This document shows positions 1 through 1,202 of a stretch of DNA of 5,685 nucleotides, in pieces. The stretch is from Nitrospinota bacterium. GTDB lineage: Bacteria; Tectomicrobia; Entotheonellia; J063. Position 1 is the stretch's first letter; every line of letters starts with the position of its first letter. The DNA lies in the NCBI GenBank assembly GCA_003696125.1, contig RFHZ01000097.1, positions 1 to 5,685 of the forward strand, written 5' to 3'. The translations under genes and the position numbers were made by a program. The notes under the pieces were generated by a model, which saw only the letters and a list, made by a program, of their open reading frames with translations, searched no databases and was not told where the DNA came from.

Positions 1-840
1 CTTCTCGTTGGAGAGGAGGGAGACGCGTTTCAGGGCCCCTAAAAGCATCTCGCGGTTGAGGAGTGCCCGCTTCTCGTATCCGCGAGGGATCACCTGTTCG
101 TAAGGGGGAAATTGTCCTTCGATGAGACGGCTGGTGAGGAGCACATCATCCTTCTTAAAGATGAGATGGCTGCCGGCGACACCCAGGAACGAGGTCTCCT
201 CTTCCCCCTTGCTCTCCTCCAACAGCTTTCGGATCTCTTCCAGCGCCTTTTTCGGTACAATAACCTCCTGCGGGGTGGGTATCCCGGCATGGGGTCGCCT
301 GATGTACGCCAGCCGGTGCCCATCACTGGAGACCATCCGCATCTCGTCGTCGTGTAAGGCAAACAGGGCACCCTTGAGGGCAAACCGGGTCTCGTCTTGC
401 GAGATGGAGAAGATGGTCTTCCCGATCATCTCGCGGAAGGTCTGGTCGTTAATCTCTATGCCATCCTTTTCCTCCGAAGAGGGGAGAGGGGGGAAATCGT
501 CTCCCCGCAGACTGGGGATTTTGAAGACAGCCCGGTCAGCGGTGAGTTGCACCCAGTTATTCTCCAGCGCGGTCAGGGTGATCGGGGTCTCGGAGGAGAG
601 TTCTCGCACGATGTCATAGGTCTGTCTGGCGGCAAGGGCCAGGCTGCCAGGGGTGATGGTCTCTGCGGCCAGCGTACCACGAAAGCCGAGTTCCAAATCG
701 GTGGCACTGATCCGCACCTCTTCTGCCGTGGCTTCCAGGAGGAAATGGGTGAGGATCGGAGTGGTGTTCCTCCGTTCCACGATCGATTGGATACGGTGTA
801 AACCTTTGAGAAAATCTTCTCGGGTAATGGTGATTTCCAT
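1..840 (-). CDS. dnaN: DNA polymerase III beta subunit (sliding clamp), 3' end cut by window
   Basis: This is the ring-shaped processivity clamp that tethers the replicative polymerase to DNA. The minus strand reads 280 uninterrupted codons from an ATG at 840 to the window edge; the family is about 370 residues, so roughly 90 C-terminal residues are missing. The protein begins MEITITREDFLKGL. Clamp hallmarks are GDDFP at residues 114-118, SSDGHRLA at 171-178, EGQFPPYEQVIP at 241-252 and RVSLLSNEK at 272-280, all close to E. coli DnaN (TDGHRLA, DGRFPDY, LSNEK). Residues 1 to about 120 form the first clamp fold, about 130-245 the second, and the third has just begun. A purine-rich Shine-Dalgarno-like stretch lies about 12 nt upstream. 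The gene is transcribed away from the origin next to it. I could not assign its promoter, because the upstream DNA is the AT-rich unwinding region. Confidence 0.97.
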   Translation of the reverse strand, partial: MEITITREDFLKGLHRIQSIVERRNTTPILTHFLLEATAEEVRISATDLELGFRGTLAAETITPGSLALAARQTYDIVRELSSETPITLTALENNWVQLTADRAVFKIPSLRGDDFPPLPSSEEKDGIEINDQTFREMIGKTIFSISQDETRFALKGALFALHDDEMRMVSSDGHRLAYIRRPHAGIPTPQEVIVPKKALEEIRKLLEESKGEEETSFLGVAGSHLIFKKDDVLLTSRLIEGQFPPYEQVIPRGYEKRALLNREMLLGALKRVSLLSNEK

Positions 841-867: not shown

Positions 868-894
868 TTAACTATTTTTACTATTTTAAAAAAT
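868..894. other. Candidate DNA unwinding element
   Basis: This 27-bp tract has only two C residues and no G, made of short A and T runs. It lies between dnaN and the trinucleotide motif, which is where the melted segment sits in origins of the Bacillus type. A dnaN promoter may overlap it: TAAAAT on the minus strand at 883-888 resembles a -10 element but has no good -35. Confidence 0.65.
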
Positions 895-905
895 GAGAAA
901 GATCG

Positions 906-917
906 TAGTAGTAGTAG
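906..917 (+). other. DnaA-trio element
   Basis: Four consecutive TAG triplets are seen; read 3' to 5' on this strand they are GAT repeats, the DnaA-trio consensus known from Bacillus subtilis and many other bacteria. They are separated from two abutting DnaA boxes (922-939) by a 4-bp GC spacer (918-921) and followed on the other side by the AT-rich tract. The order box-box, GC spacer, trios, AT-rich DNA matches the described basal unwinding system, in which DnaA spreads from double-stranded boxes onto one strand. Confidence 0.75.
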
Positions 918-921
918 GGGC

Positions 922-939
922 TGTGGATAATGTGGATAA
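922..939 (-). other. Two abutting DnaA boxes beside the trio
   Basis: Two perfect 9-mers TGTGGATAA lie head to tail with no spacer (922-930 and 931-939). They point toward the trio and AT-rich tract, so they are the best candidates for the anchoring boxes from which DnaA loads onto single-stranded DNA. Confidence 0.9.
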
Positions 940-982: not shown

Positions 983-1014
983 TGTGGATAAAGTTGTGGA
1001 TAACCTGTGGATAA
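983..1014 (-). other. Three DnaA boxes, minus orientation
   Basis: Perfect boxes at 983-991, 995-1003 and 1006-1014 have starts 12 and 11 bp apart, about one helical turn, so they face the same side of the helix. The last is the left half of an inverted repeat with the box at 1023. Confidence 0.9.
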
Positions 1015-1033
1015 CTTCCGAGTTATCCACAGG
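1004..1033. repeat. Inverted repeat at the point where box orientation flips
   Basis: CCTGTGGATAAC (1004-1015) and its exact complement (1022-1033) are 12-bp arms around a 6-bp spacer. All boxes to the left (922-1014) read one way and all boxes of the central cluster read the other way, so this is the symmetry axis of the main array. Confidence 0.85.
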
Positions 1034-1094
1034 CTCAAGTTATCCACAAGTTATCCACAGGGTTATCCACAAGTTATCCACAGGGTTATCCACA
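1023..1094 (+). other. Six DnaA boxes, plus orientation
   Basis: Perfect TTATCCACA boxes start at 1023, 1040, 1051, 1063, 1074 and 1086. The last five follow alternating 11- and 12-bp steps, close to helical phasing. This is the densest part of the origin and probably nucleates an ordered DnaA assembly (inference). Confidence 0.92.
1048..1093 (+). repeat. Perfect 23-bp tandem repeat, two copies
   Basis: Bases 1048-1070 and 1071-1093 are identical. Each unit holds essentially two DnaA boxes separated by GGG and begins AAG. Bases 1037-1047 repeat the first 11 bases of the unit, which suggests that the array grew by unit duplication. Confidence 0.9.
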
Positions 1095-1202
1095 GGCTAA
1101 GCTATTGAAAAGAAAGGGAAATTATGTATCTATTTGATTTGTAAGGCGTTAGAAATCCCTCTTTTTCCCCGCATCAAAAGAACAAAATCACCATCTTTTT
1201 GC
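1095..1202. other. Box-free AT-rich spacer between the origin sub-clusters
   Basis: About 108 bp, AT-rich for most of its length with A and T runs, separates the main box array from the right-hand group. I see no perfect DnaA box and no convincing gene. It could be a second melting region or a bending or architectural-protein site; no clear IHF site was found. Confidence 0.45.

Follow-up and report, generated by a model that had tools for sequence, protein, structure and literature searches.

In Bacillus subtilis, DnaA bound at two DnaA boxes seeds an oligomer on the strand that carries the DnaA-trios, and this oligomer stretches the strand and opens the adjoining AT-rich DNA. The same model proposes this strand as the loading site of the first helicase; distal boxes aid the process by delivering DnaA, probably via a loop (PMC6669920, PMC8287927, PMC10201434). 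Pelliciari et al. (2021) predicted such a basal unwinding system (BUS) in 85% of 2,070 origins, and the mechanism has been reported to be functionally conserved in six tested species. The published search rules (PMC8287927) comprise one or two boxes, the better of which has at most two mismatches and reads 5'-TTATCCACA-3' toward the trios; a spacer of at most 16 nt, typically a GC-rich gap of about 4 nt, with 10-13 nt between the conserved upstream box and the trios; and at least three 3'-NAN-5' trios, 3'-GAT-5' being preferred. The commonest published spacer between the upstream box and the trios is 13 nt (PMC8287927).

The stretch analysed herein (the window, 5,685 bp) makes up one whole contig of a genome bin that is fragmented into 990 contigs and is 95% complete with 7.98% contamination. 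Its left end (1-840, minus strand) is occupied by the 5' 280 codons of an open reading frame for dnaN (beta clamp; TIGR00663, 233 bits against a cut-off of 137.65), and the contig ends inside the gene. An intergenic region follows (841-1531), and beyond it lie genes for an MFS transporter and an EamA-type transporter, hisZ and purA. The intergenic region contains 14 perfect TTATCCACA boxes, which all fall within 922-1237; boxes with a single mismatch are absent. In addition, all nine matches to the tandem-box pattern in the 4.18-Mb bin fall at this locus, upstream of dnaN, and the backward control pattern gave none. Because the 14 perfect boxes and every tandem-box match of the bin are found here, region 841-1531 is likely the chromosome origin (oriC). 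The boxes are unusually uniform, many being 11-12 bp apart, in a leftward array and then a rightward one. An Rfam scan gave no match. Local GC skew did not support divergent forks and partly opposed them, and is not informative on a contig as short as 5.7 kb.

The block at 868-939 has all the elements of a BUS. Two perfect boxes, each reading TTATCCACA on the minus strand (TGTGGATAA on the plus strand), abut one another at 922-930 (trio-proximal) and 931-939, and both are oriented toward the trios. A GC-rich spacer, GGGC/GCCC, occupies 918-921, which places the second box 13 nt from the trios. The four trios, TAGTAGTAGTAG, lie at 906-917 on the plus strand, where each 5'-TAG-3' corresponds to the preferred 3'-GAT-5'; the DnaA filament is predicted to bind this strand. 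An 11-bp gap of mixed sequence, GAGAAAGATCG (895-905), separates the trios from an AT-rich tract (868-894, 25/27 A+T, 93%), the predicted site of initial melting and helicase entry. The trio run stops at four unless the frame is moved by 2 nt. Read on the minus strand, the order is TTATCCACA-TTATCCACA-GCCC-CTACTACTACTA, the 11-bp gap, the AT-rich tract and dnaN. A preliminary description of this DNA had given the coordinates of the boxes, the GGGC, the four TAG triplets and the AT-rich tract, and these were exact to the base. It had also called the layout complete; the elements and their order bear this out, but the AT-rich tract does not abut the trios.

Further boxes lie to the right of the block. 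Three perfect boxes at 983, 995 and 1006 (983-1014, minus strand) face the same direction as the BUS boxes and form a candidate upstream loading array. Six perfect boxes at 1023, 1040, 1051, 1063, 1074 and 1086 (1023-1094, plus strand) face the opposite direction and are mostly 11-12 bp apart. The last three are found within 1205-1237, at 1205 and 1217 on the plus strand and at 1229 on the minus strand; the inverted pair within this stretch also scores as a terminator-like hairpin.

Among the closest known systems is the B. subtilis BUS (incC DnaA-boxes 6/7; PMC6669920). Both loci have tandem boxes directed toward the trios, a short GC spacer, 3'-GAT-5' trios opposite the strand with the box consensus, and AT-rich DNA beyond, with unwinding toward dnaN, which for the window is a prediction. 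The likening of the window to a B. subtilis-type layout in the preliminary description thus agrees with the definition in PMC6669920 and PMC8287927 in order, orientation, spacing and polarity. The window differs in that both boxes are perfect and abutting, the four trios are identical, the box array has an MFS transporter gene beside it, and dnaN is not accompanied by dnaA. Like the 1,755 bacterial origins with a predicted BUS (PMC8287927), it follows the search rules, in its case with a 13-nt spacer from the upstream box; unlike them, it comes from a sparsely sampled phylum. A close match in sequence was found in the dnaA-dnaN origin of Priestia megaterium (NZ_CP140268.1, 1436-1476), which shares 92.9% identity with the window block over 42 bases (TTATCCACATTTCCACAGCCCCTATTACTACTACTA). 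This origin belongs to a Firmicute, however, has an imperfect second box and lies between dnaA and dnaN. The record itself (L303) is listed as the 'plasmid' p2_CACC119; since it begins with dnaA-dnaN-yaaA-recF, it probably represents part of a chromosome or carries a chromosomal origin.

The box-spacer-trio arrangement in the window is not due to chance. The block was the top BUS candidate on either strand, with a trio score of 20 compared with 7-8 for the next independent candidates. We fixed the 14 boxes and shuffled the rest of 841-1531, a procedure that preserves only base composition. None of 20,000 shuffles placed four or more CTA at a distance of 16 nt or less from a perfect box, 7 of 20,000 placed at least three there, and 4 of 2,000 reached the observed trio score. 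Duplex stability calculated from nearest-neighbour energies points to the same place. At lengths of 20, 27, 40, 60 and 100 bp, the weakest stretch in the entire window falls within 868-972, and the least stable 27-mer is exactly 868-894.

We then compared the locus across genomes. Of 386 genomes, 12 had a box followed after 0-16 nt by CTACTACTA, whereas none had the backward-read control. Among the 11 other genomes with the pattern, dnaN was in the same locus of about 3 kb in 10 and dnaA also in 9. A 4-nt GC spacer (GCCC or GGCC) is common to several of these unrelated genomes, G224 (TTATCCACAGCCCCTACTACTA) and G308 (TTATCCACATATCCACAGCCCCTACTACTA) being two of them. In 18 of 50 dnaN-upstream regions (17 besides that of the window), no more than 5% of block shuffles equalled the sense-strand BUS. 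The preliminary description had considered the four perfect trios especially regular, which is true, but they are not unusual, as three or four perfect CTA occupy the same place in several other genomes. In G042 (L011), 18 consecutive trios, far more than usual, follow TTATTCACA upstream of dnaN.

The sample from the phylum comprised four genomes besides that of the window, all of the same class and none of the same order. In G004, TTATGAACA-TCCC is followed by seven trios upstream of dnaN. G001 and G002 have in common TTTACTA(C/A)TGTTTAATTTT before dnaN; the nearest box-like site, with two mismatches, precedes these trios by 18 nt, where the published limit is 16; G003 has scattered isolated trios only. 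Trios are therefore retained upstream of dnaN in three of the four genomes, in two of the three beyond the spacing limit and with a different exact sequence. The conservation check proposed in the preliminary description spoke partly in favour of the module: the block recurs upstream of dnaN in these three and in many unrelated genomes, but its letters are not identical. The architecture thus appears to be conserved, and the letters are not.

Taken together, we interpret the 868-939 block as the BUS of a chromosome origin and a canonical member of its kind, with a probability of roughly 0.87. Counting against this interpretation are the lack of a dnaA match in the bin, the isolated trios of G003, the 18-nt distance in G001 and G002, the local GC skew and the 11 bp that separate the last trio from the AT-rich tract. 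By analogy with B. subtilis and the other tested species, we infer that DnaA would bind and oligomerise at the block, melt the DNA and bring about helicase loading. DnaA would bind the abutting boxes at 922-939 via domain IV, and the array at 983-1237 would deliver extra DnaA to them. The protein would then be guided over the 4-bp GC spacer onto the four plus-strand TAG trios, where an oligomer with one subunit per trio would stretch the plus strand. Because the trio strand is the plus strand, DnaA is predicted to load there and the opening to proceed leftward toward dnaN, as the preliminary description had anticipated. The duplex would open into the AT-rich tract at 868-894 beside dnaN, where the plus strand would receive the first helicase.

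Three other readings were weighed. In a bipartite origin, the main opening might take place in the AT-rich DNA at 1095-1202, between two box arrays, and 868-939 would be secondary or unused. The second weakest 27-mer of the window (1119-1145) does lie there, and the six boxes at 1023-1094 point at it. However, none of those boxes is followed on the correct strand by a run of at least three trios, and the trio position on the dnaN side is the one common to other genomes, so we consider an opening at 1095-1202 improbable. It is less probable still that the contig was misplaced in the bin and carries the origin of a plasmid or a contaminant, in which case the block would be real but would belong to the oriC of another genome. 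The number of contigs and the contamination of the bin speak for a misplacement, whereas the neighbours dnaN, hisZ and purA are chromosomal, this dnaN is the only dnaN match of the bin, and its best matches among the searched genomes are in same-class genomes. A plasmid origin was also looked for and rejected, as no plasmid record covered the region. Finally, we give very little credence to the tract at 868-894 being chiefly the dnaN promoter, with the TAG repeat a product of chance or regulation and the boxes autoregulating dnaN: the tract immediately precedes dnaN and shares the AT-richness of promoters, but it contains no sigma-70-like site (the only one found, 1245-1216, is at chance level), and both the shuffle test and the cross-genome placement of box, spacer and trios argue against it. 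As part of a BUS, the tract may nevertheless have a dual role in the origin and as the dnaN promoter.

The initiator gene itself was also sought. Searches of the bin with the PF00308 and TIGR00362 profiles found no dnaA. The sole weak match, C887, was rejected because it resembles a REP-type transposase whose C-terminal helix is DnaA-like. The absence of dnaA from the bin is probably due to incompleteness. In the window, dnaN points away from the origin and has no dnaA beside it, unlike in the four same-class genomes (G001-G004; L066-L069, L090-L103). Each of these four has two dnaA genes. The full-length gene lies away from dnaN and without a box cluster. The shorter gene adjoins dnaN, and the DnaA model matched it only from about position 100-107; this copy apparently lacks domains I-II. 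In G001, the dnaN-adjacent DnaA has an altered Walker A motif (RAGDSLGKSH), and in G003 the second copy appears in two frames.

The same module was encountered in phages. A phage contig with terminase and capsid genes (IMGVR_UViG_3300025010_001129; L114, 2441-2480) contains an exact 25-mer of the window block. Raw counts in viral contigs of a box followed after 0-16 nt by CTACTACTA showed no enrichment over the reversed control (74 vs. 98 stretches); only co-occurrence with further boxes was enriched, at least three perfect boxes being nearby in 27 of 74 contigs with the pattern and in 1 of 80 with the reversed trios. When the pattern-bearing contigs (L128-L201) were searched by tblastn with a small number of dnaA and dnaN queries, neither gene was detected. 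Genes for terminase, portal, capsid or tape-measure proteins are present in several of these contigs. Gokushoviruses, with ssDNA genomes of about 5 kb, show this layout too, in regions where no gene is annotated (KT264804.1, KT264798.1 and KT264801.1; L300-L302), as exemplified by TTATCCACATTTCCACAGCACCCTACTACTACTACTA in KT264804. Within the partly covered literature matching phage and DnaA-trio, no title or abstract announced such a module. We see about even odds that box, spacer and trios make up a portable origin module, copied or converged on by unrelated DNA phages (tailed phages and gokushoviruses), with host DnaA opening the phage DNA as it does the chromosome. The phage module may be an origin that host DnaA operates, which, if true, would be a new way of coupling phage replication to the host initiator.

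The block at 868-939 is near-ideal but ordinary, since Bacillus and most other bacteria are known to have the same layout, and the phage module and the paired dnaA genes are stronger leads than the block itself. The putative BUS confirms the existing picture and does not change it. It offers a compact, testable substrate and would extend an experimentally grounded unwinding module, in near-ideal form, to a sparsely sampled phylum.
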